Notes under the pieces: model-generated
What the model was told of the DNA's origin: nothing
Databases searched by the model: none
What the model saw: only the letters and a program-made list of their open reading frames with translations
Translations under genes and position numbers: made by a program
DNA from: Promicromonospora umidemergens
Lineage (GTDB): Bacteria > Actinomycetota > Actinomycetes > Actinomycetales > Cellulomonadaceae
Length of the DNA: 64,000 nt
Assembly (NCBI RefSeq): GCF_024171995.1
Contig: NZ_JAMTCT010000002.1
Coordinates: forward strand, 361,458-425,457
Reading direction: 5' to 3'
Part shown: in pieces, positions 5,577 through 47,918 of the stretch
How the letters are laid out: each line of letters starts with the position of its first letter
Numbering within the stretch: the stretch's first letter is position 1

Positions 5577-7085
5577 TCACCCCCGACCGGCCCCCGACCG
5601 GCCCGGCCTTCTGAGGAGGCCGACGAGGACGTCCGCGACGACGAACCCGGCGAGCGTCCAGCCGACCAGCGGCAGCCACCAGCCGATGGCGACGGCCGCG
5701 CCGAGCACGGCGGCGATCCCCCACCACGGCGCACCACGCAGCACGCCCCGCTGCGGCGGGGTCCCGCCCAGCGTGCGCGGCTCGCGCGTCGGACGCCGCT
5801 TCCACCACATGAGGTAGCCCAGCACCACCATCGTGGCGATGCCGCTCGCGAGCAGGAACAGCACCAGCTGGTTGGGCAGGCCGAACAGCGAGCCCATGTG
5901 CGCGTCGATCCCCCACCGGGCGAGCTTCGCCGCCAGCGGGAACTCGGCGAAGTCGACGCGGTGGAGGACCTGCATCGTGTCGGGGTCGACCGCCACCGCG
6001 TCGACCTCGGTCGGGTAGCTGCGCTGGATCTCCTGCACCACCCAGGCGGTACCTGGCTCGGTCGGCGGCGTGATCTCGACCAGGCCGGTGTTGATGTTCA
6101 CCGCCTGTGCGGTCGCGAGGACGGCGTCGAGCATGGCGGGATCAGCAGCGCCACCAGCCCCACCGGCCCCGCCGGTCCCGCCGGTCTCGTCGGCGCCCCC
6201 GTGGTGGGCGTGCTCCCCTCCGCCGTCGTCCTCCGCCGCGCCCTGCTCCGCGCCACCGCCCGGCAGCCGCGCGTCCACCGCGGGCGTCCCCCAGTCGAAC
6301 GCCGCCCGCAGGGTGTCCACGTTGCTGCCAGCGTGCTGCGACCAGGTGATACCCGTCGCCGAGAGGAACAACGCCCCGAGCAGCACCCAGATGCCGACGG
6401 AGGTGTGCCAGGTGAACAGGCGCCGGTAGCCGGAGCGCCCGCGGCCGGGCCGCACGAAGTCCTTCTTGGTGCGGGACTTCCGGATGCGCCGGATCCAGAG
6501 CCCGAGGCCCGCGAGCGCCACGATCCCGAGCCAGGAGGCGGCGAGCTCGCTGTAGAGCCGGCCGACGTCGCCGAGGTGGAGGTTGCGGTGCAGCTGGTCG
6601 AGCCAGGTGCGCAGCGGCAGGGCGCCGCTGGTGCCGTAGACGGTGAGGTCGCCGCGGACCTCACCGGTGCCGGGGTCGACGAACACGGCGCGGGACTCGC
6701 TCTCGCCGAGCTCGTCGTCGGCGAACATGATCCGGGTGGTGTCCCCGGGCTCGGGGGCAGGGCGCACCGCCGTCGGCGTCGCCGCGGCGTCGCCGATGTG
6801 GCTGCGGGCGATCTCGGTCTGCTCGGCCAGGGTCAGCCGCGTGTCCGTGACGGGGGCGTGCAGCTCGTGCTGGTAGACACCCTGCTCGATCGCGGGTGTC
6901 AGGGCGTACAGCGCGCCGCTGACCGCGGCGACGAGGATGAACGGGCCCACGAGGAGACCGGCGTAGAAGTGCAGCCGGAGCAGCAGGGCGCCGAACCAGC
7001 GGGGGCGCCCCTCGGGCCGGCTGGGTCCGGGCGGTGGCGGGTGCTCCCGGTCGCTCTCGGGTGTGGCGGAGACGGTGGTGGTCAT
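5577..7085 (-). CDS. PepSY-domain transmembrane protein (iron-regulated membrane protein family)
   Basis: 502 residues. Four membrane helices are visible: one near the N-terminus (LLVGPFILVAAVSGALYALTP), two central ones (ELAASWLGIVALAGLGLWI and TSVGIWVLLGALFLSATGI) and C-terminal ones from LVLFLLASGIATMVVLGYLMWW onward, with two extracytoplasmic PepSY regions between them. The loop before the third PepSY-like region is Gly/His-rich (GGEHAHHGG). Such proteins are often found with siderophore or copper uptake genes and may act in reductive metal handling; the exact reaction is not established. It lies downstream of the His-rich membrane protein gene on the same strand, 105 bp apart. Confidence 0.85.
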   Translation of the reverse strand: MTTTVSATPESDREHPPPPGPSRPEGRPRWFGALLLRLHFYAGLLVGPFILVAAVSGALYALTPAIEQGVYQHELHAPVTDTRLTLAEQTEIARSHIGDAAATPTAVRPAPEPGDTTRIMFADDELGESESRAVFVDPGTGEVRGDLTVYGTSGALPLRTWLDQLHRNLHLGDVGRLYSELAASWLGIVALAGLGLWIRRIRKSRTKKDFVRPGRGRSGYRRLFTWHTSVGIWVLLGALFLSATGITWSQHAGSNVDTLRAAFDWGTPAVDARLPGGGAEQGAAEDDGGGEHAHHGGADETGGTGGAGGAGGAADPAMLDAVLATAQAVNINTGLVEITPPTEPGTAWVVQEIQRSYPTEVDAVAVDPDTMQVLHRVDFAEFPLAAKLARWGIDAHMGSLFGLPNQLVLFLLASGIATMVVLGYLMWWKRRPTREPRTLGGTPPQRGVLRGAPWWGIAAVLGAAVAIGWWLPLVGWTLAGFVVADVLVGLLRRPGRSGAGRG

Positions 7086-36394: not shown

Positions 36395-37318
36395 TCAGTC
36401 TGCCGCCGGGCCGAAGCGTTCGGTCCGGACTCGCGCAGGGTCGTGGCCCTGGGCCACGATCATGCGCGAGACCGCCTCGACGAATCCCGTAGGGCCGCAG
36501 ACGTACACCCGCGGCTCCAGCTCGGGCGGCCAGCCCCACGTCGCCAGCTCGGAGGCGGTAAGGCGCCGCGGCCCGCGCAATTCGGTGAGGGAGACGGCCC
36601 GCGTGAAGATCGTGCGGGCCTCGAACCCGTCAGCGCGGGCCGCGAGCGCCTCCAGCTCGTCCGGGTACAGCTGGTCCTCCGCCGTCCGGACCGAGTAGAT
36701 CAGGCGGACCGGCGTCCGGTCCCCGGCGTCGCGCCGGGCCCGGGCCATGGACATCACCGGGACCAGGCCAGACCCTCCGGCCAGGAGCAGCACCGGCGTG
36801 CCCGCGTCAGCCACGGGGTCCCAGACGAACCATCCGCCGATGGGCCCACGAACCTCGATCGCGGATCCGGGCGGGAAGTCGTCGACCAGGTACGGGGACA
36901 CCTCGCCGTCGCGCACCCTCTGGACGGTGACCTCGACCCGGCCTGCGCCGGTCGCCGTCGGTCCGCTCGCGAGGGAGTACGACCGTTCGGCGGTGTAACC
37001 GTCGGGTGCGGTGAGGCGCAGGTCGAGGTGCTGACCGGCCTGATGACCCGGCCAACCGGGCACGTCGAGCGCGAGCGTCACAGCGGACGAGCTCTCGGTC
37101 CGGCGCTCCACCAGGGTGGCGACCTGCCAGCCGGACCGGACGGCATACCGCTCACCGAGCCGGGCGCTCGGCTCCCCGGCAGGCGCCGTCACGGCGGGCC
37201 CCGTCACGGCGGGCCCCGTCACGGCAGATCCACGTCCCGCAGGCTCAGTCCCCGCAGGCTCAGTTCCCGCAGGTGCCACCTCGTCGGGCCGAACCCCCGA
37301 ACGCGGCACGTCAGTCAC
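36395..37318 (-). CDS. FAD-dependent ferredoxin-reductase-type oxidoreductase
   Basis: 307 residues. FAD-binding barrel with RSYSLASGP, then GPIGGWFVWDP, the NAD(P) domain LLLAGGSGLVPVMSMAR and the terminal VYVCGPTGFVEAVSRMIV. No iron-sulfur cluster domain. GTG 37318 overlaps the stop of the molybdopterin gene by 8 nt, so this is its likely electron-transfer partner. The first about 45 residues are low complexity, built from 15-bp repeats (GTEPA and VTGPA units). Confidence 0.88.
   Translation of the reverse strand: MTDVPRSGVRPDEVAPAGTEPAGTEPAGRGSAVTGPAVTGPAVTAPAGEPSARLGERYAVRSGWQVATLVERRTESSSAVTLALDVPGWPGHQAGQHLDLRLTAPDGYTAERSYSLASGPTATGAGRVEVTVQRVRDGEVSPYLVDDFPPGSAIEVRGPIGGWFVWDPVADAGTPVLLLAGGSGLVPVMSMARARRDAGDRTPVRLIYSVRTAEDQLYPDELEALAARADGFEARTIFTRAVSLTELRGPRRLTASELATWGWPPELEPRVYVCGPTGFVEAVSRMIVAQGHDPARVRTERFGPAAD
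37187..37277. repeat. Two adjacent 15-bp tandem repeat arrays
   Basis: CGTCACGGCGGGCCC at 37187 and 37202 plus a diverged copy at 37217; then GCAGGCTCAGTCCCC at 37239, a variant at 37254 and a partial copy at 37269. Both are in frame in the reductase N-terminus. Confidence 0.9.
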
Positions 37319-38003
37319 CCTGATACCTCTGCTCGCGCCAGGGGTCGCCGAGGTCGTGATAGCCGAGCTTCTCCCAGAAGCCCGGCCGGTCCACCGGCAT
37401 GAGGGTGAGCGAGCGCACCCACTTGGCCGACTTCCAGAAGTACAGGTGCGGCACCAGCAGCCGCGCGGGGCCGCCGTGCTCGGCGTGCAGCGGCGCACCG
37501 TCGAAGGTGTGCGCGATCCATGCCTTGCCGCCCAGCAGGTCGGCGACCGGCAGGTTGGTCGTGTAACCGCCGTAGGAGCCCACCATCGCGAAGTCCGCGG
37601 TGGACTCCACCTCCGCCAGCAGCACGTCGAGGGAGACGCCGCGCCACCGGGTACCGAACTTGGACCACCGCGTGACGCAGTGGATGTCCACGGTCGGCTC
37701 GTCCTGGGGCAGGGCCATCAGCTCGGCCCATGTCCAGGACTTCGTCACGCCGGCCTCGTTCGTGACGGTGAAGCTCCAGGTCGTCGAGCTGACGTTGGGC
37801 GTGGGGCCGGCGGAGAGAACAGGAAAGCCGCTCTCGGCGTACTGCCCCGCCGGCAGAGTCACGCCTTCGGGGCGCGCCCGGCCGCGAAAGCCGGGGGTGA
37901 GGGTGGCACCGGGGCCGCGGGCCAGCCCGGCGGAGTCGAACCCGGCTGCGTCGAACCCGGCAGAGTCAGGGCCACCCGGTGCGGGTGGAGTCGCACTGGT
38001 CAT
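37311..38003 (-). CDS. Molybdopterin-dependent oxidoreductase, sulfite-oxidase-like
   Basis: 230 residues, a short sulfite-oxidase fold domain. The molybdenum-ligand cysteine is in VDIHCVTRWSKFGTRWRGVSLDVLL; YGGYTTNLPVADLLGGKAWIAHTFDGAPL and GGPARLLVPHLYFWKSAKWV are also conserved. No Tat signal is visible, so it is likely cytosolic. The substrate is unknown; the reductase encoded next supplies or removes electrons. The N-terminal leader holds three 15-bp repeats (37929-37973, DSAGF-type). Confidence 0.9.
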   Translation of the reverse strand: MTSATPPAPGGPDSAGFDAAGFDSAGLARGPGATLTPGFRGRARPEGVTLPAGQYAESGFPVLSAGPTPNVSSTTWSFTVTNEAGVTKSWTWAELMALPQDEPTVDIHCVTRWSKFGTRWRGVSLDVLLAEVESTADFAMVGSYGGYTTNLPVADLLGGKAWIAHTFDGAPLHAEHGGPARLLVPHLYFWKSAKWVRSLTLMPVDRPGFWEKLGYHDLGDPWREQRYQGD

Positions 38004-38273
38004 GTCTCAAGGTAGTGCGGCGGTGGTCGTGCCGTCATCCGACGACGGCACGCCCCGGTCGCCCACCACGCGGCGAGCAGGCAGTCATTGCCTGCCGCTG
38101 CGCAGAGCTGGCCGACCACCGGGCGCGCGGTGTGCTGTTTCGGGTTCGGGTTCGGGTTCCATGGCTCCGTGCACCCTCGCCCCGCCCTCCGACGACCGGC
38201 GTGCTGTGACCACCACCACGTCACGTCTCGCCGCGCCGCGTTGTCGAAAGGGTAAGACCACCAGGAGGTTGCC

Positions 38274-39689
38274 ATGGAGAAGATTCTGATCGTCGGCGGC
38301 GGCTACGCCGGCTTCTACGCCGCGTGGGGACTGGAGAAGAAGCTCGGCCGGGGCGAGGCCGACGTCACCCTCGTGGACCCCCACGGCTACATGACCTACC
38401 AGCCGTTCCTGCCCGAGGTCGCGGCCGGATCCATCGAGGCGCGGCATGTCATGGTCTCGCTGCGCGGGCACCTGCACCGCACGACCGTCATCGCCGGACA
38501 GACGACGTCGATCGACCACGCGCACCGCACCGCCACCGTCCGGACCACCGACGGCGCCCCGCGCGAGATCGCGTACGACACGATCGTCGTCACCGCCGGC
38601 GCCGTGACCCGCACGTTCCCCGTCCCCGGCATCGAACAGGAGGCGATCGGTCTCAAGCACGTCGAGGAGGCCGTCGCGATCCGCGACCAGCTGCTGACCG
38701 CCTTCGACCGCGCCGCGCTGCTCCCGCCGGGCGTCGGGCGCCGTCGGCTGCTGACGGTCACCGTCGTCGGTGGTGGGTTCACCGGGGTCGAGGTCTTCGG
38801 CGAGCTGCTTTCCCTGGCCACGAGCATGCTGCGCGCCTACCCGGAGCTCTCCCGCGACGACCTGGACTTCCACCTCGTCGACTCGAACGACCGCATCCTG
38901 CCAGAGGTCACCGACGAGCCCGGCCGCTGGGTGGTGCGCCACCTGGAGAAGCGGGGTGCGCACCTGCACCTCGGCACCCAGGTGGTCTCGGCCGCCGACG
39001 GCCGGATCATGCTGTCCACCGGCGAGTCGTACGGCAACGGGCTGCTGATCTGGGCTGCAGGCAACGGCAGCAACCCCGTCGTCGCGCGCAACACCGATCT
39101 TCCGGTCGACGAGCGCGGCCTGGTCCGCGTCCGGGCCGACCTCCGGGTGGGGACCTCCGACGCACCGGTGCCGCACGCGTGGGCCGCCGGTGACAACGCC
39201 GCGGTCCCCGACCTGGCCGCGGCCGTCCCCGGCGCGCGGGCCGTGCCCAACGCGCAGCACGCGGTGCGCCAGGGCAAGCTTCTCGCGAAGAACCTGGTCG
39301 CGGACCTCCGCGGCAAGAACGTGCAGCCCTACCTCCACCACAGCCTCGGCACGGTGGCCACCCTCGGCATCGGGCACGGCATCTTCCAGTACCGCCGGCT
39401 GGTCATCACGGGCTTCCCCGCCTGGCTCATGCACCGCGGCTACCACGTCCTCGCCGTGCCGACGTGGGAACGCAAGATCCGCGTGCTGCTCGTCTGGGTG
39501 TCGGCGGTGATCTTCGGCCGGGACATCATCCCGCTCTCCACGGTGCAGCGGCCACGTGCGGCTTTCCTCGCCGGCGGCGACCCGTTCGCCGGGTCCGACG
39601 GCGAGCATCCGGCCGTCCGGCCCGCGCCCCACGACAGGCCCGAGCCCCACGACAGGCCCGAGCTGAGCGTGGTGCGCGATGCGGGCTGA
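38274..39689 (+). CDS. ndh: Type II NADH dehydrogenase-like flavoprotein (NDH-2)
   Basis: 471 residues. Two dinucleotide folds: FAD site ILIVGGGYAGFYAAWGLEKKLG and NADH site TVTVVGGGFTGVEVFGEL; AWAAGDNAAVPDLA is the second FAD motif. The end (VITGFPAWLMHRGYHVLAVPTWERKIRVLLVWVSAVIFGRD) is the membrane-anchoring region. It oxidises NADH and reduces membrane quinone without pumping protons. AGGAGG precedes the ATG. Its 3' end overlaps the cytochrome b gene by 11 nt. A 2x18-bp repeat (PHDRPE) sits near the C-terminus. In the 270-bp gap upstream the only notable features are small dyads and a CGGGTT triplet repeat. Confidence 0.9.
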   Translation: MEKILIVGGGYAGFYAAWGLEKKLGRGEADVTLVDPHGYMTYQPFLPEVAAGSIEARHVMVSLRGHLHRTTVIAGQTTSIDHAHRTATVRTTDGAPREIAYDTIVVTAGAVTRTFPVPGIEQEAIGLKHVEEAVAIRDQLLTAFDRAALLPPGVGRRRLLTVTVVGGGFTGVEVFGELLSLATSMLRAYPELSRDDLDFHLVDSNDRILPEVTDEPGRWVVRHLEKRGAHLHLGTQVVSAADGRIMLSTGESYGNGLLIWAAGNGSNPVVARNTDLPVDERGLVRVRADLRVGTSDAPVPHAWAAGDNAAVPDLAAAVPGARAVPNAQHAVRQGKLLAKNLVADLRGKNVQPYLHHSLGTVATLGIGHGIFQYRRLVITGFPAWLMHRGYHVLAVPTWERKIRVLLVWVSAVIFGRDIIPLSTVQRPRAAFLAGGDPFAGSDGEHPAVRPAPHDRPEPHDRPELSVVRDAG

Positions 39690-41349
39690 CCGTCGCCACC
39701 TCCGGCGCCAACAGAGCCAACAGAGCCAACAGAGCCAGCAGCGCCGCCGTCGTCCGCGGGCCGTCCTCGCCCAGCTCGACGCACGGTTCCCGGACCTCGC
39801 CCGACGGCGGGTGCGCCTGCGCTGGTCCAACCTGTTCGGCGTCGTTACGTTCGCCTGCCTGCTCGTGCTGGCGCTGACCGGCGTCCTGCTGGCTTCCTGG
39901 TACACGCCGTCGAACGAGCTCGTCACCTACGACGGGCCTTACGCACCGCTCCAGGGTGCCACGGTGACGAAGGCCTTCGACTCGACCATGCGCATCTCGT
40001 TCGAGCAGACCGGCGGCCTCCTGCTGCGCCAGACGCACCACTGGGCAGCGCTGGTCATGCCGGCGTCGATGATCGTGCAGCTCCTCGTCACGTTCTTCAC
40101 CGGCGGGTTCCGCCGTCCGCGGCAGCTGAGCTGGGTCCTGCTGGTCGTGGCCTTCATCCTGGTGCTCGCCGCCGGGTGGAGCGGCTACGCCCTGCCGGAC
40201 GACATGCTGTCGGGCACCGGCCTGCGCATCGTGGAGGGCGTGGTCCTCAGCATCCCGTTCGTCGGCACCTGGGTGGCGAGCTGGATGTTCGGCGGGCCGT
40301 TCCCCGGCCAGATCATCGAAAACCTCTACCCCGTGCACGCCGTCGTCGCGCCCGGGTTGCTCGTGCTGGTCCTGGCGGTGCGCGCGGTGCTCTTCGTCCG
40401 GCACGGGCAGGCAGCCCACCCGCGACCCGCACCGGCACCGTCGCTCGGGCTGCGCCTCTGGCCCGACGCCGCCCTCCGGGCCGCCGGGATGGTCGGCCTG
40501 ACCAGCGCGGTGCTGGTCCTGCTCGGGGCAACCTCGACGATCAGCCCCGTCTGGTCCTACGGACCGGCGTCCGTCGGCGAGGTGGGCGCCGGAAGCCAGC
40601 CCGACTGGTACATGGGCTTCCTGGACGGTGCGCTGCGGCTGGTACCCGTCGGCTGGGAGACCGAGTGGATGGGCTGGACCGTCACCTTCGCGACCCTGGT
40701 CCCCCTGGCCGTGATCGGCGGATACTTCGCGATCCTGATCGTCTACCCGTACATCGAGGCGTGGGTCAACCAGGACCGCGAGCCGCACCACGTCCTCGAC
40801 CGGCCGAGGAACGTCCCGGTCCGCACGGGGATCGGCGTCGCCGGAGCGCTCTTCTACGGCATCCTGTGGGGCGCCGCGAGCGCCGACATCGTCTCCACCG
40901 AGTTCAGCGTGCCGTTCGAGACGATCATCACGACGCTCCAGGTCGCACTGGTCATCGGTCCGCCGCTGGCGTTCGAGGTCGCTCGCCGCCTGTGCGTCGG
41001 CCTGCAGCGCAAGGACCGCGAGGTGGCGCTGCACGGGCACGAGACGGGCCGGATCGTCCGGATGCCGAACGGCGGGTACGCGGAGATCCACCAGCCGGCC
41101 GACGACGCGGAGCGGGCGCTGCTGTCCGTGGCTCCTGTCCCACCCGTGCCGGGCCGCCCGGACGGCAAGGGTCGGCTCAGCGGGCGGGAGCGGCTGCGTG
41201 GGGCGCTGTCGCGACAGTTCGGCACCGGGCATGTGGTGCCGGTCCTGGACGGCGACCGGACCCCGGTGATCGATCCGGCAGCCGGTCCGGGAGGTGATCC
41301 GGCAGCCGATCGAGCGATCGAACCGGCACCACGGCTCCACGTGCCGTAG
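39679..41349 (+). CDS. Cytochrome b (QcrB-like) lacking both heme bH ligands
   Basis: 556 residues, eight membrane helices as in actinobacterial QcrB. Helix B RQTHHWAALVMPASMIVQLL keeps His120 but has Gln134 where QcrB has His. Helix D LYPVHAVVAPGLLVLVLAVRAVLF keeps His220 but has Arg235 for His. So the pair that binds heme bL is present and the pair that binds heme bH is gone. The quinol-oxidation site motif is intact (QPDWYMGF, 308-311), as is DREVALHGHETGRIVRMPNGGYAEIHQP. There is no QcrA or QcrC nearby; the gene is coupled to NDH-2 by an 11-nt overlap. The N-terminus has a 9-bp QQS repeat. Probably a specialised single-heme quinone protein rather than part of the main bcc complex. Confidence 0.88.
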   Translation: MRADRRHLRRQQSQQSQQSQQRRRRPRAVLAQLDARFPDLARRRVRLRWSNLFGVVTFACLLVLALTGVLLASWYTPSNELVTYDGPYAPLQGATVTKAFDSTMRISFEQTGGLLLRQTHHWAALVMPASMIVQLLVTFFTGGFRRPRQLSWVLLVVAFILVLAAGWSGYALPDDMLSGTGLRIVEGVVLSIPFVGTWVASWMFGGPFPGQIIENLYPVHAVVAPGLLVLVLAVRAVLFVRHGQAAHPRPAPAPSLGLRLWPDAALRAAGMVGLTSAVLVLLGATSTISPVWSYGPASVGEVGAGSQPDWYMGFLDGALRLVPVGWETEWMGWTVTFATLVPLAVIGGYFAILIVYPYIEAWVNQDREPHHVLDRPRNVPVRTGIGVAGALFYGILWGAASADIVSTEFSVPFETIITTLQVALVIGPPLAFEVARRLCVGLQRKDREVALHGHETGRIVRMPNGGYAEIHQPADDAERALLSVAPVPPVPGRPDGKGRLSGRERLRGALSRQFGTGHVVPVLDGDRTPVIDPAAGPGGDPAADRAIEPAPRLHVP

Positions 41350-43030: not shown

Positions 43031-44314
43031 TCAGCAGCGCCCCGGCTCCTCTTCTCGCGGCTGATCCTGTGTCGCCCGGAGCGTCGCGACGACGGAGGGC
43101 CACCGGCCCGCGGTCCGCACCAGGACGACGTCGGCCCGCGCACCCGGGACGAGCGATCCGCGGTCGGTCAGCCCCGCCGCTCGCGCCGGGCCCGAGGTGA
43201 CGAGGGCTACGGCGCGCGGCAGGTCGGCCAGGCCCTCCCGGACGAGCACCTCGATGACGGCCAGCAACGTGGCAGGCACGTAGTCGGACGCGAGCGCGTC
43301 CACGAGCCCGAGGGCCACCAGCTCGCGCGCCGAGACGTTGGCGGTGTGCGAGCCGCCGCGCACCGCGTTCGGTGCGCCGGCCACGATCGCGAGCCCGTCG
43401 GCTCGGGCGGCGCGGGCAGCCTCGACGGTCGTCGGGAACTCGGCGACGACGCCGCCGCGGGCCACCAGCGCCTCGATGTCACCGGCGGATTCCGGGTCGT
43501 GGCCCGCCAGGCGGATCCGGCCGGCGTGGGCGAGGTCACCGAGCCGGGTCAGGGTCGCGGCGGCGACGTTGGACCGGTCCTCGCGTTCCTGGCGCCAGCT
43601 CCGGACGTGGGCGCGTGCGTCGTCGGCCGAGAAGCCCTCCCTGCCCACGAGCAGGCGTTCCATGGCCGCCGGGTCGGCGTACTGCCCGATCCCCGGGGTG
43701 TGGTCCTCGTGGGAGACCAGGGGTGGGATGTCGCGGGGCGAGGTGTGCGCGAGCGCCGCCTCGAGCTCGGGCAGCGCGGCGGGGCTGCGGATGTCGAGCC
43801 GGTACAGCACCCGCGCGCCGGACGCCCGGGCCTCGGGCGCCTGGAGCGCGTGGAGCAGGTCCTCTGGTCCCGGTAGGCCCGCTGGCAGGCCGACGGGCGT
43901 GTGCGCGCCGAAGGGCACGCCGTGGAAGGCGGTGAGCACCCCGCAGCCGGCGAGACGTTCGGTGGCGGTGCGGACGGCGAGGTCGAGCGGGAGGTCGGCG
44001 CCGGGGCGCGGCTTGCGCTCGTGGGCGAGGACGTCGGTGTGCACGTCCACGAGGCCGGGCAGGCAGAGGGCTCCGCGGCCGTCGAGGTCGGGGCGCGCTC
44101 CGGGCGGTCGCGCGCCCACCTCGACGATGCGGCCGCCGCGCACGACCACCCAGGCGTCGTCGACCACCCGGTCGGGCAGGACGGCGGTGACGCCGCCGAG
44201 GGTCCAGTCCCCCGGAGTCTCCCCGAGCGGCCAGCCCCCGGCCGGCGCAGCCCGCGGCGTGCTCGACGCATGATTCACCGCCACAGCATGGTTCACCGCC
44301 ACAGCATGGTTCAC
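43031..44314 (-). CDS. phnM: PhnM-like amidohydrolase (phosphonate metabolism)
   Basis: About 427 residues. Metal-site motif CLPGLVDVHTDVLAHERKPRPGADLPLD, then LVSHEDHTPGIGQY, GHDPESAGDIEALVARGGVVAEFPTTVEAARAARADGL, GAPNAVRGGSHTANVSARELVALGLVDALASDYVP. These are PhnM hallmarks; in C-P lyase pathways PhnM hydrolyses ribose methylphosphonate triphosphate. None of phnGHIJKL is present here, so its substrate may differ. The GTG start is ambiguous: three 18-bp repeats supply starts at 44314, 44296 and 44278, and the repeated NHAVAV peptide is probably not functional. Divergent from phnDCE. Confidence 0.85.
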   Translation of the reverse strand: MNHAVAVNHAVAVNHASSTPRAAPAGGWPLGETPGDWTLGGVTAVLPDRVVDDAWVVVRGGRIVEVGARPPGARPDLDGRGALCLPGLVDVHTDVLAHERKPRPGADLPLDLAVRTATERLAGCGVLTAFHGVPFGAHTPVGLPAGLPGPEDLLHALQAPEARASGARVLYRLDIRSPAALPELEAALAHTSPRDIPPLVSHEDHTPGIGQYADPAAMERLLVGREGFSADDARAHVRSWRQEREDRSNVAAATLTRLGDLAHAGRIRLAGHDPESAGDIEALVARGGVVAEFPTTVEAARAARADGLAIVAGAPNAVRGGSHTANVSARELVALGLVDALASDYVPATLLAVIEVLVREGLADLPRAVALVTSGPARAAGLTDRGSLVPGARADVVLVRTAGRWPSVVATLRATQDQPREEEPGRC

Positions 44315-44375
44315 CGCCTCATGTTGTCCGGACGACCTGGCGGGACGGTGAACGACAGTTCACCCGCCGTTCACC
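44273..44375. promoter_or_regulatory. Cluster of GTTCACC heptamers between phnM and phnD
   Basis: GTTCACC or its complement occurs at 44291, 44309, 44347 (as GGTGAAC), 44358 and 44369, with ATTCACC at 44273. The pair 44347-44353 / 44358-44364 forms a perfect dyad with a 4-bp spacer. The first three are carried by 18-bp repeats that also encode the phnM N-terminus. This is a likely binding region for a phosphonate or phosphate regulator. Confidence 0.6.
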
Positions 44376-44473
44376 ACCGCAGGGCCGCCGGTTCTCTCCG
44401 CCCTCGCAGACTCGGCGACGGCGCCCGTACGGGGCTGCCAGAAAGCACCGCCTGAACGGCTACGACCGGAGAG

Positions 44474-45442
44474 ATGATGAAGAGCACCAAGACCCTCACC
44501 GCGGCGGCGTTCGCCGCCGCGACGGCGCTGACGATGTCCGCGTGTGCCGGTGGTTCCGGGGCCGCCGCGGAGAGCACCACCGCCGAGGGCTTCCCGTCGG
44601 TCATCCGGCTCGCCGCGATCCCGGCGGAGAACTCGACGGATCTCGCCGCCGGGTACGACCCCATCGTCGCGATGCTCGAGGAGGAGACGGGCGCCACCGT
44701 CGAGGTGAGCCAGGCCTCCGACTACGCGGGCGTCATCGAGGGTCTCATCGCCGACAAGGTCGACATCGCGTTCCTCGGGTCGTTCGCGTACGTGATCGCC
44801 ACGCACAACGACGCAGCGATCACTCCCCTCGGTGCGGCCATCGAGGCGAAGGACGCCGAGCCCGGCTACCACTCGCTCGGCATCGCCCCCGGCGACAGCG
44901 ACATCGACAGCCTCGAGGACTTCGCCGGGCACAGCGTGTGCTTCGTCGACCCCGGCTCGACGTCCGGCTTCCTGTACCCGAGCGCCGGCCTCATCGACGC
45001 CGGCGTCGTCGCCTCCGGCAAGGAGGCCGACGTCGCAGCCGGTGTCCAGCCCGTCTACGCCGGAGCGCACGACGCCTCGGCGCTCGGTGTCGCCGCCGGT
45101 GACTGCGAGGCGGGCTTCGCCATGGAGTCCATGGTCACCGAGACGCTCCCGGCGGCCGGCGACCTCGCCGACGGCGACCTGAAGGAGGTCTGGCGCTCGC
45201 CGAAGATCTCTGGCTCGCTCTTCGTCGGCAACGACGCGCTCGGCGAGGACGTCAACGCGAAGCTCACGAGCCTCATCACCGAGAAGGCCAACTCGGAGTA
45301 CCTGCTGTCGGAGGGCTACTGCGACGGCGAGTGCCTGCTCACCGACGAGGACGCCTGGGGCTTCGCGCCCGCAAAGGACGCTGACTACGACGGCACCCGT
45401 GAGGTCTGCACGCTCACCAAGTCGGACAAGTGCGAGGGCTGA
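44474..45442 (+). CDS. phnD: Phosphonate ABC transporter substrate-binding lipoprotein
   Basis: 322 residues. Lipoprotein signal with SAC (Cys24). Mature part: LAAIPAENSTDLAAGYDPIVAMLEEETGATVEVSQASDYAGVIEGLIADKVDIAFLGSFAYV, VCFVDPGSTSGFLYPSAGLIDAG, a PhnD/PtxB-type binding fold. It captures phosphonate or phosphite outside the membrane. GGAGAG lies directly before ATG ATG (44474/44477); either may be used. First gene of phnDCE. Confidence 0.93.
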   Translation: MMKSTKTLTAAAFAAATALTMSACAGGSGAAAESTTAEGFPSVIRLAAIPAENSTDLAAGYDPIVAMLEEETGATVEVSQASDYAGVIEGLIADKVDIAFLGSFAYVIATHNDAAITPLGAAIEAKDAEPGYHSLGIAPGDSDIDSLEDFAGHSVCFVDPGSTSGFLYPSAGLIDAGVVASGKEADVAAGVQPVYAGAHDASALGVAAGDCEAGFAMESMVTETLPAAGDLADGDLKEVWRSPKISGSLFVGNDALGEDVNAKLTSLITEKANSEYLLSEGYCDGECLLTDEDAWGFAPAKDADYDGTREVCTLTKSDKCEG

Positions 45443-45444
45443 CC

Positions 45445-45519
45445 GTGCAGCCCGACACCGTGCAGCCCGACACCGTGCAGCCCGACAACGTGCGACCCGA
45501 CACCGTGCAGCCCGACGCC
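45445..45519. repeat. 15-bp tandem repeat, five copies
   Basis: Unit GTGCAGCCCGACACC at 45445, 45460, then variants at 45475, 45490 and 45505. Each unit starts with GTG, so each could serve as a start codon for phnC; the array may hide or multiply initiation sites. Confidence 0.93.
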
Positions 45520-46284
45520 GGCGAGCCCGTCGTCCGGGTGCGCGGCCTCACCAAGGAGTTCGACGGGACGACGGCGCTGGCGGGCGTCGACCTCGACGTG
45601 GCCCGTGGCGAGCTGCTCGTGCTGCTCGGTCTGTCGGGCTCGGGCAAGTCGACGCTCCTGCGCTGCCTGAACGGCCTGCACCGGCCCACGGCCGGCGAGG
45701 TCACCGTGGCGGGCACGCGGGTCGACCGCGCGTCGGGGCGCGAGCTGCGCCGCCTGCGCACGGAGGTGGGCTTCGTGTTCCAGCAGTTCAACCTGGTCGG
45801 CCGGCTCACCTGCCTGGAGAACGTCCTGATCGGTGGGCTCGGGCGGGTCCGCGGGCCTCGGTACGGCGTCACGACCTACTCGCGCGCGATGCGGGAGGAG
45901 GCGCTCGCCCACATCGAGCGGGTGGGCCTCGCGGACCACGCCTACCAGCGGGCCGACACCCTCTCGGGCGGCCAGCAGCAGCGCGTCGCCATCGCCAGGA
46001 CCCTCATGCAGCGACCCCAGCTCGTCCTGGCCGACGAGCCCGTCGCGTCGCTCGACCCGGAGAACTCGGGCGCGGTGATGGACCTCCTCGTGCGCGTGTG
46101 CGCCGAGGAGGGGCTGACCGTCGTGTGCACCCTGCACCAGGTGGACCTGGCGCTCGGCTGGGCGCACCGGCTGGTCGGGCTGCGCAGTGGCGAGAAGGTC
46201 CTCGACCGGCCAGCAGCGGGCCTGACCCGGGACGACGCCATGTCGATCTACCGGCACGTCGAACCGGCAGAGGCTCTGGCGTGA
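45445..46284 (+). CDS. phnC: Phosphonate ABC transporter ATP-binding protein
   Basis: 279 residues. Walker [11 protein letters not shown]-loop [18 protein letters not shown], signature [15 protein letters not shown], Walker [15 protein letters not shown]-loop [12 protein letters not shown] 45445 follows the phnD stop by two bases; an earlier GTG at 45430 is possible. The first 25 residues are five 15-bp repeats (VQPDT), not part of the fold. GTGA overlap with phnE. Confidence 0.93.
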
Positions 46285-47893
46285 GCGCACCGACCACCCG
46301 GGAACGCCGCGACGGGCACAACACCGGAGCGCACAACACCGGCGGGCACAGCACCGGCGGCCGGCTCCCCCCGCCGCCCACGCCACAGCAGCGCGCGCTC
46401 CGCTGGATCGCCGGCGGTTCGGTGCTGCTCGCGCTCGTCGCGGCGTCGTCGATCGGCCTCGACCTGCCGACGCTGATCGCCGGGGGCGAGGACGTCGCGT
46501 CGCTCGTCGAACGGATGCTCCCGCCGCGCGTCGACGACCCCGCGCGCATCGCCGCGCTCACCCTCGACACCGTGCTCATGGCGTTCCTCGGGACGGTGCT
46601 CGCGACGTTCCTGTCGGTTCCCCTCGCGTTCCTCGCCGCCCGGACGACGACGCCGCACCCCGCCGTCGCCACCGTCGCACGCGGGCTGATCACCTTCTGC
46701 CGCGCGGTGCCCGACCTCGTGTTCGCGGTCCTGTTCGTCCGGGCGCTCGGGCTCGGTGTGCTGCCCGGCGTGCTCGCCCTCGCGCTGCACTCGGTCGGCA
46801 TGCTCGGCAAGCTCTTCGCCGACGCGATCGAGGACGCCGACCCGGGCCCCCGCGAGGCGGTGCGCAGCGTCGGCGTCGGCCCGCTGCGCGAGCTGCTCAA
46901 CGGTGTGGTGCCCCAGGTGGTGCCCGCCTGGGTGTCGGCGTTCGTCTACCGGGTCGACATCAACCTGCGCACGTCCGTCGTGCTCGGCTTCGTCGGCGCG
47001 GGCGGGATCGGGTTCGCCCTGCAGGACGCGCTGCGCGGCCTCGTGTACCCGAAGGCGCTGGGCATCGTCGCGATCATCCTCGTGGTCGTCGCGGCCATGG
47101 AGCTGCTGTCGATGGCGGTCCGTCGCGCGCTGCTGGCACCCCGCAACCCGCGCTTCGAGCGCGACCGGGTGGTGCGGTTCCTCTCCGGCGGAGCGGCGCT
47201 CGCCCTCACGGTGTTCGCGTTCGTCCGCCTCGGCATCGACCCTCTCGCCCTGGTGACGTCCGTGCCCGACCTGCTCGCGGTCGCCGGCCGCACCTTCCCC
47301 CCGGATCTGACGTCGCTCGGGCCGGTGCTCTGGGAGGCCCTCCTCCAGACGCTCGCCATCGGGCTCGTGGCGACGGCGATCGGCGTCGTGCTGTCGCTCC
47401 CGCTCGGCCTGCTCGCGGCCCGGAACGTGGCGCCGCACCCCGTGGTCCATGCCGCTGCCCGCACGACGGTGCTCGTGGTGCGGGCCGTCCCTGAGCTCGT
47501 CCTCGCGGTGATCCTGGTCGCCGCCGTCGGGCTCGGTCCGGTCGCGGGTGCCATCGCGCTCGGCATCGGCTCGATCGGGTTCCTCGGCAAGCTGGTCGCC
47601 GACGCCGTCGAGGAGATTCCCGCCGGGCCCGCCGAGGCGGTGCGGTCCGTCGGCGGCGGCTGGTGGAAGGTGCTCTTCGCGGCGGTCCTGCCCCAGAGCC
47701 TGCCGTCGGTCGTCGGCTCGACGCTCTACCTGCTCGACGTCAACATCCGGACCTCGACGATCCTCGGGATCGTCGGCGCGGGCGGCGTGGGCTTCCTGCT
47801 GTTCGAGGCGGTACGCACGCTCCGGTTCGAGGTGGTCGGCGGCATCGTGCTGCTGGTGTTCGTCGTCGTCCTGCTCATCGAAAGGCTCTCCGG

Positions 47894-47918
<25 letters not shown>
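46281..47918 (+). CDS. phnE: Phosphonate ABC transporter permease, two fused PhnE domains
   Basis: 545 residues, twice the usual PhnE. Each half carries the BPD permease pattern: first half TLDTVLMAFLGTVLATFLSVPLAFLAARTTTPHP and RTSVVLGFVGAGGIGFALQDALR; second half LLQTLAIGLVATAIGVVLSLPLGLLAARNVAPHP and RTSTILGIVGAGGVGFLLFEAVR. EAA loops are DPGPREAVRSVG and PAGPAEAVRSVG. The fusion makes the transporter dimer in one chain. GTG overlaps phnC (GTGA). N-terminus holds three 15-bp repeats (46317-46361). Confidence 0.93.

Follow-up and report, generated by a model that had tools for sequence, protein, structure and literature searches.

Cytochrome b is commonly held to need both of its hemes for the Q cycle. 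Here we describe a gene of Promicromonospora umidemergens encoding a QcrB-like cytochrome b that is predicted to have kept heme bL and lost heme bH. The gene lies directly downstream of one for a type II NADH:quinone oxidoreductase (NDH-2) in a stretch of 64,000 nucleotides (assembly GCF_024171995.1, contig NZ_JAMTCT010000002.1, positions 361,458 to 425,457 of the forward strand), hereafter “the window”, whose own coordinates are used below. The solved QcrB chains of bcc-aa3 (PDB 7rh5, 6adq, 7e1v, and 7q21, all of which we take to be actinobacterial) resemble the protein over residues 46-478, in the bL ligands, in a PDWY-type motif, and in the C-terminal extension. It differs from them as a paralogue, of a kind carried by some soil actinobacteria, that lacks the bH ligands, has Leu in place of Gly155, has lost the Glu and Phe residues of the Qn site, and is not adjoined by qcrA.

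Streptomyces coelicolor QcrB3 (SCO7236) is likewise a QcrB paralogue encoded away from the qcr-cta genes, and is reported to co-purify with parts of bcc-aa3 (PMC7931247). The Streptomyces copies that we retrieved without a qcrA match in the fetched DNA (L113, L115, L117, and L120, a set that does not include SCO7236) differ from the window protein in keeping all four ligands. A bH-less half is also found in the Rhodobacter H212N knock-out within asymmetric cytochrome b fusions, where electrons cross from bL to bL (PMC4330944); the change is engineered there, whereas here we find a natural clade with a remodelled bH/Qn region. Finally, the regulons (COE genes) of ECF41-type extracytoplasmic function (ECF) sigma factors share with our loci the promoter consensus TGTCACA-n16-CGTC and neighbours of the Pyr_redox_2-type oxidoreductase and NmrA-type epimerase kinds (PMC3426412). 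The word “cytochrome” does not occur in the main text of that paper, whereas here we predict direct control of a cytochrome b gene.

Loss of the heme bH ligands and the Qn site

The open reading frame (39679..41349, + strand; 556 aa; Pfam PF13631, 5.4e-40) scores 137.5 bits against Pfam Cytochrom_B_N_2, where the cut-off is 27, and so belongs to that family. Against the NCBIfam model NF050120 (bc1_QcrB_actin) it falls marginally short of the curated cut-off (499.3 versus 500), the paralogue having been scored without a canonical comparison. Residues 46-478 align to the solved QcrB chains (E about 1e-103), and both the alignable length and the C-terminal region of QcrB are retained. In this alignment Q134 (40078..40080) and R235 (40381..40383) fall on the bH histidines and H120 (40036..40038) and H220 (40336..40338) on those of bL; a further histidine, His121, stands beside His120.

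Another contig of the same genome carries two more complete qcrB genes arranged in tandem, each with the four histidines, so that the window copy is a third paralogue. Directly 5' of the second tandem gene (L002, contig C1, 1027-2859) lies a gene that reads as one for a superoxide dismutase (215-982).

Residues were counted in 78 rows of the clade described below, which were picked by tree and not by residues, and in 27 canonical proteins for comparison; the 78 include three identical pairs, and L122, which is in two pieces, was counted by the larger one. Both bL ligands are present in 78/78 rows. The bH positions, histidine in 27/27 canonical proteins, hold Gln134 in 77/78 rows (the exception, L114, has H134) and Arg235 in 76/78. 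All four positions read H120/Q134/H220/R235 in 75/78 rows, and four histidines were found in none of the 78, as against 27/27 and 25/25 canonical sequences. Three residues past the first bH ligand position, V137 (40087..40089) replaces an Arg near heme bH that occurs in 27/27 canonical proteins and 0/78 clade rows. L155 (40141..40143), at what we take to be the position of bovine Gly116 in the bH pocket, is Leu in 77/78 rows and Gly in 27/27 canonical proteins. The combination Gln134/Leu155/Arg235 recurs in 75/78.

The Qn site is altered as well. Mycobacterium tuberculosis (Mtb) numbers are our own offset from the alignment to 7e1v, which we take to be Mtb QcrB, and the N and P sides of the membrane were assigned by us. 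Residues of the Mtb Qn site include Phe39, Glu49, and Phe262 (PMC8616580), and in Corynebacterium glutamicum the Qi menaquinone is held by one hydrogen bond, to Glu38 (PMC8795186); Glu49 probably corresponds to this Glu38. At the Phe39 position, V45 (39811..39813) is Val in 64/78 clade rows and Phe in three; at that of Glu49, V55 (39841..39843) is Val in 64/78 and never Glu; the canonical proteins have Phe and Glu, respectively, in 27/27. Position 264, equivalent to Phe262, is Ala in 67/78 rows. On the P side, PDWY (residues 308-311, 40600..40611), the motif of the Qo site, is present in 78/78 rows, and W167 (40177..40179), at the Mtb Tyr161 position of the Qp site, is Trp in 78/78, where 26/27 canonical proteins have Phe. 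Over residues 41-262, 14 of the 35 canonical-invariant positions on the N side are lost, versus 2/41 on the P side (Fisher p 2e-4). These counts, together with the asymmetry between the two sides, lead us to conclude that heme bH and the Qn site were lost together while bL and the Qp motif were kept.

Judged by its residues, then, this is a conserved clade in which the presumed N-side redox site (bH ligands, Arg, pocket Gly, and Qn residues) is lost and the P-side half retained, and the protein is almost certainly a conserved bL-only variant of QcrB. An unusual heme ligation at the bH site may still be compatible with the sequence, and His-Lys ligation is functional in an engineered case (PMC4807273); the Gly-to-Leu change at pocket position 155 makes a bH heme unlikely. 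The first-pass annotation of the window had read the four ligand positions as we do, a reading now borne out by the solved structures, and was also right that PDWY and the C-terminal region are kept. Its statement that exactly the two bH ligands had been lost was too narrow, given the changes to V137, L155, V45, V55, and A264. The apparent dismantling of the Qn site along with heme bH goes beyond it, as does the putative ECF41-type promoter at the operon and at many stand-alone genes described below.

Distribution and selection

Orthologues without internal stops were found in 12 of 13 Promicromonospora genomes, at 71-88% identity versus 42-45% for canonical copies; the genome without one is 83% complete. 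Among 200 family genomes, nine outside the genus carry an orthologue at an identity of at least 65%. In the first family set, Q134 and R235 occurred in 21/21 other paralogue loci, and His134/Arg137/His235 in 20/20 canonical rows (two genes of the genome itself being counted more than once). A genome scan with an alignment of the paralogue yielded 162 relatives, of which 80 were kept. Eight of these (L107, L113, L115, and L117-L121) fall outside the clade; the other 72, the query, and five other loci make up its 78 rows (SH-like approximate likelihood ratio test, SH-aLRT, 100; the tree was a quick one with no bootstrap). Members of the clade belong to Promicromonosporaceae, Cellulomonadaceae, Microbacteriaceae, Propionibacteriaceae (Microlunatus), and Nocardioidaceae. 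When 396 genomes were sampled across the phylum, each of the 25 best-scoring loci newly fetched from them proved canonical (H,H,R,G,H,H; F45, E55), an indication that, within the phylum, the clade is of limited spread. Matches to qcrA were absent from the fetched DNA of every clade locus and present in 18 loci with canonical qcrB. Our literature search found no description of such a bL-only QcrB clade, which does not establish its absence from print.

The paralogue is under purifying selection: the ratio of nonsynonymous to synonymous substitution rates (dN/dS) was 0.14-0.29 in four clade pairs, as against 0.14-0.16 in three pairs of canonical qcrB.

Other departures from the canonical ligand set were seen outside the clade. 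The QcrB-like protein of Actinoplanes solisilvae (L119, 8028-9479) has Q134, F137, and S235 and keeps Gly155, perhaps an independent loss of heme bH. A further group of QcrB paralogues (L129, L130, and L142 of family f7; L144, L146, and L151 of family f13) keeps both bL histidines, has I, V, or Y at the second bH ligand position, and reads GALWF or GALWY for PDWY, so that the Qo site itself is changed.

Linkage to NDH-2

The upstream gene (38274..39689, + strand; Pfam Pyr_redox_2, 4.3e-40) encodes an NDH-2 of a cytochrome b-linked subfamily, and its stop overlaps the start of the cytochrome b gene by 11 nt (39679..39689). Of the 72 clade loci, 30 have an NDH-2 gene immediately 5' of the cytochrome b gene in the same orientation and three have one nearby in another arrangement; the flanking DNA fetched holds none in 37 loci and is too short to tell in two. 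The overlap noted in the first-pass annotation is present in the window and is exactly 11 nt in 28/30 linked loci. Two worries raised there, that the genome might have no other qcrB and that homologues beside NDH-2 might keep four histidines, have been removed by the canonical pair described above and by the absence of His at 134 or 235 in the linked loci (0/30).

All 30 linked NDH-2s carry two Gly-rich dinucleotide motifs. The quinone motif of NDH-2 is AQxAxQ; here AQHAVR occurs in 30/30, followed by Q where checked, so that the last Q is shifted by one. Beyond the window NDH-2, the genome has one other long NDH-2 match, at 42%, and two weaker ones. In the NDH-2 tree the linked proteins sit in a clade of 43 rows (36 linked, 7 unlinked; ultrafast bootstrap 100, SH-aLRT 100) apart from the housekeeping NDH-2s, and distances among the NDH-2s track those among the cytochromes b (Mantel r 0.84; none of 2000 permutations as high). 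Given the shared overlap, the co-varying distances, and the single subfamily clade, the operon is likely old.

The linkage is nevertheless dispensable to the cytochrome b, because three genomes, each of 100% estimated completeness (G342, G379, and G219), have a stand-alone cytochrome b gene without the linked NDH-2 subfamily; their near full-length NDH-2 matches are of housekeeping type only, with an additional partial match of 34% in G219. Remnants of the overlap were sought in the loci lacking a directly upstream NDH-2 and suspected in 4/42, a count that we judged no better than a chance guess. The partnership proposed in the first-pass annotation thus stands in part: the overlap joins the cytochrome b to a distinct NDH-2 subfamily, but the data do not support the idea that working with this NDH-2 defines the protein.

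A predicted ECF41-type promoter

The ECF41 consensus is TGTCACA-n16-CGTC, and leaders of 22/23 nt have been reported for its targets (PMC3426412). A sequence of this type, CGTCACG-N16-TGTC (38219..38245, + strand), ends 28 nt before the NDH-2 ATG and agrees with the consensus at 8/11 positions. Since the match alone is not significant (26/100 shuffles have one), this putative promoter rests on its conserved place, a similar position being seen in most Promicromonospora orthologues.

Across the clade the signal is stronger. The exact consensus (spacer 15-17) was set before the search and is therefore a cleaner test than the degenerate motif; it gave eight matches in 1.17 Mb of clade loci, and seven of the eight fall 38-102 nt ahead of the estimated cytochrome b start. 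Matches at 9 or more of the 11 positions were found in 59/73 upstream regions versus 48/1440 random stretches. The degenerate motif and its slots were picked after seeing these upstream matches; the motif was in its slot in 58/72 loci (23/30 before NDH-2, 35/42 before cytochrome b), where 0.23 would be expected, and in 0/25 canonical control genes, a control weakened because 18/25 have qcrA upstream, so that the upstream stretch is coding. Outside the slots it matched 74 times, above the expectation from base composition, and the reversed control did not match. The distance from the end of the motif to the NDH-2 start is 25-43 nt in the 23 linked loci having it, which agrees with the reported leaders. 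In the P. umidemergens genome the pattern occurs 24 times, versus five for its reversed control; one match separates an ECF-type sigma gene from a divergently oriented gene whose product reads as NAD(P)-binding.

Sigma genes of a fitting kind lie near part of the clade. SigJ-type genes were found in the fetched flanks of 27/72 clade loci versus 1/9 loci outside it, and two sigma genes of clade loci exceed the cut-offs of the SigX4/SigJ models. Judged by translation, five of the seven unlinked subfamily NDH-2s (L185, L186, L188, L189, and L190) have an ECF sigma gene nearby. The flanks also hold NmrA-type genes (21/72) and FrdA-like flavoprotein genes (9/72). Taken together, these patterns make it highly probable that an ECF41-type sigma factor controls the NDH-2/cytochrome b operon or the stand-alone cytochrome b gene. 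The ECF41 link points only loosely to redox stress: loss of sigJ makes M. tuberculosis slightly sensitive to peroxide, but in two other bacteria mutation of ECF41 made no significant difference (PMC3426412).

Elsewhere in the genome (L258, C3:86500-92000), a distant NDH-2-like gene adjoins a SigJ-like sigma gene that scores slightly below the model cut-off. The promoter motif is absent there; this is possibly another ECF41-oxidoreductase pair.

Proposed role and alternatives

Stand-alone genes are maintained where the linked NDH-2 subfamily is missing, and no qcrA match accompanies them in the fetched DNA, so the partner is likely to be one found in all carriers, such as bcc. The simplest mechanism is a mixed bcc dimer, because it uses the half that was kept, can do without a partner gene of its own, and is in keeping with the presence of canonical copies. 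Under an ECF41-inducing condition, the P-side-only QcrB would be made and would enter the existing bcc complex beside a canonical subunit. Menaquinol would be oxidised at the Qp site of the variant, one electron passing to Rieske/QcrC and the second from the variant's bL to the partner's bL and on to the partner's bH. With a single Qn site for its two Qp sites, such a dimer would, we propose, run a Q cycle of different stoichiometry. The linked NDH-2, where present, would feed the menaquinone pool without pumping. The behaviour of the orphan QcrB3 noted above offers a parallel, and in engineered bc1 an electron from Qo reaches the bH of the other half through the bL-bL bridge, with turnover when bH is knocked out in one half (PMC4330944). 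We put forward the mixed dimer tentatively. The full sequence of events, from ECF41 control through bL-bL transfer in the mixed dimer to NDH-2 as an optional feeder, is a shade more speculative, and it is doubtful that, under an ECF41 factor, a fraction of the bcc-aa3 supercomplex changes over to asymmetric dimers in which two sites for quinol oxidation are matched by one bH/Qn site.

Several observations weigh against this proposal. The linkage observed is with NDH-2 and genes of the ECF41 type rather than with qcr genes. The P-side invariants R111 and R215 are mostly lost in the clade, which could weaken contacts with partners, and both assembly with QcrA/QcrC and the single-heme content are predictions from sequence. 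A bH-less homodimer would offer the second electron no clear route. An AlphaFold2 model from a 14-row alignment has low confidence (predicted local distance difference test 47.5), its helix order fitting QcrB. With regard to regulation, the window contains no match to the exact ECF41 consensus and no sigma gene was found in it, and the motif is absent from its slot in 14/72 loci.

Four alternatives were considered. We rejected a decaying duplicate, which has next to no credibility: dN/dS is somewhat above that of canonical qcrB in three of four pairs, but the values attest selection, the Q/L/R triad is uniform, and genus matches are free of internal stops. The first-pass annotation had argued that random decay would not be expected to remove one matched pair only, and the near-uniform Gln and Arg at those positions likewise speak against chance. 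A non-catalytic QcrB-like regulator or decoy, forming inactive mixed complexes that lower bcc activity under stress, would suit a sigma-type promoter and a chain that keeps its alignable length and C-terminal region and is incapable of a full Q cycle; since the bL ligands and PDWY never vary, selection for redox chemistry seems to continue, and we regard this alternative as very improbable.

The single-heme quinone-binding module dedicated to the adjoining NDH-2, for docking or non-bifurcating electron transfer, as the first-pass annotation proposed, draws support from the 11-nt overlap, the single subfamily clade, and the co-divergence. NDH-2, however, works at the N side and heme bL lies at the P side, more than half of the loci have no NDH-2 in the fetched DNA (37/72), and in G342, G379, and G219 the cytochrome b is accompanied by housekeeping-type NDH-2 as the only near full-length matches; we think this module unlikely. 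Somewhat less so is a protein acting on its own at the P side to oxidise menaquinol or let electrons out under redox stress, in which bL would pass electrons to an extracytoplasmic acceptor (candidates being a metal, peroxide, or a small cytochrome) or serve Qc-type storage of electrons on menaquinone. The retained P-side half, the ECF41-type promoter and its neighbours, the FrdA-like flavoproteins, and the Qc menaquinone known near bL in C. glutamicum (PMC8795186) are in its favour. No extracytoplasmic redox partner was seen among the neighbour clusters inspected (crude gene caller, one or two representatives each). Two-electron quinol oxidation by one low-potential heme is, moreover, hard without a Rieske protein.

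Neighbouring genes

Neighbours predicted by the crude gene caller were clustered in search of a second conserved one; stand-alone copies in several Microbacterium loci lie between housekeeping genes (representatives: diaminopimelate epimerase and IPP transferase). Divergent from the operon in the window is a pair of genes for a molybdopterin-binding oxidoreductase and a flavin reductase (36395-38003, - strand). As redox partners these were dropped, the former having been seen, besides the window, upstream in six Promicromonospora loci only. Downstream (43031-47918), translations read as phosphonate-type ABC transporter genes with a PhnM-like amidohydrolase. In L043 the operon is preceded by an NPP1-domain gene (6020-6478), whose cluster is represented in seven loci, of which one was searched.

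Implications

The putative ECF41-type promoter before NDH-2 or a stand-alone cytochrome b is new in this analysis, and ECF41 sigma factors thereby gain a predicted respiratory target. A selected clade that keeps only the P side offers a natural test of whether bL-bL transfer has a physiological use, a question that the fusion study approached with engineered proteins (PMC4330944). If the variant enters the complex, it would be the natural counterpart of a half-disabled enzyme that has so far been made in the laboratory; electrons might then cross the bL-bL bridge as part of normal physiology, with a changed proton yield or superoxide risk under stress.

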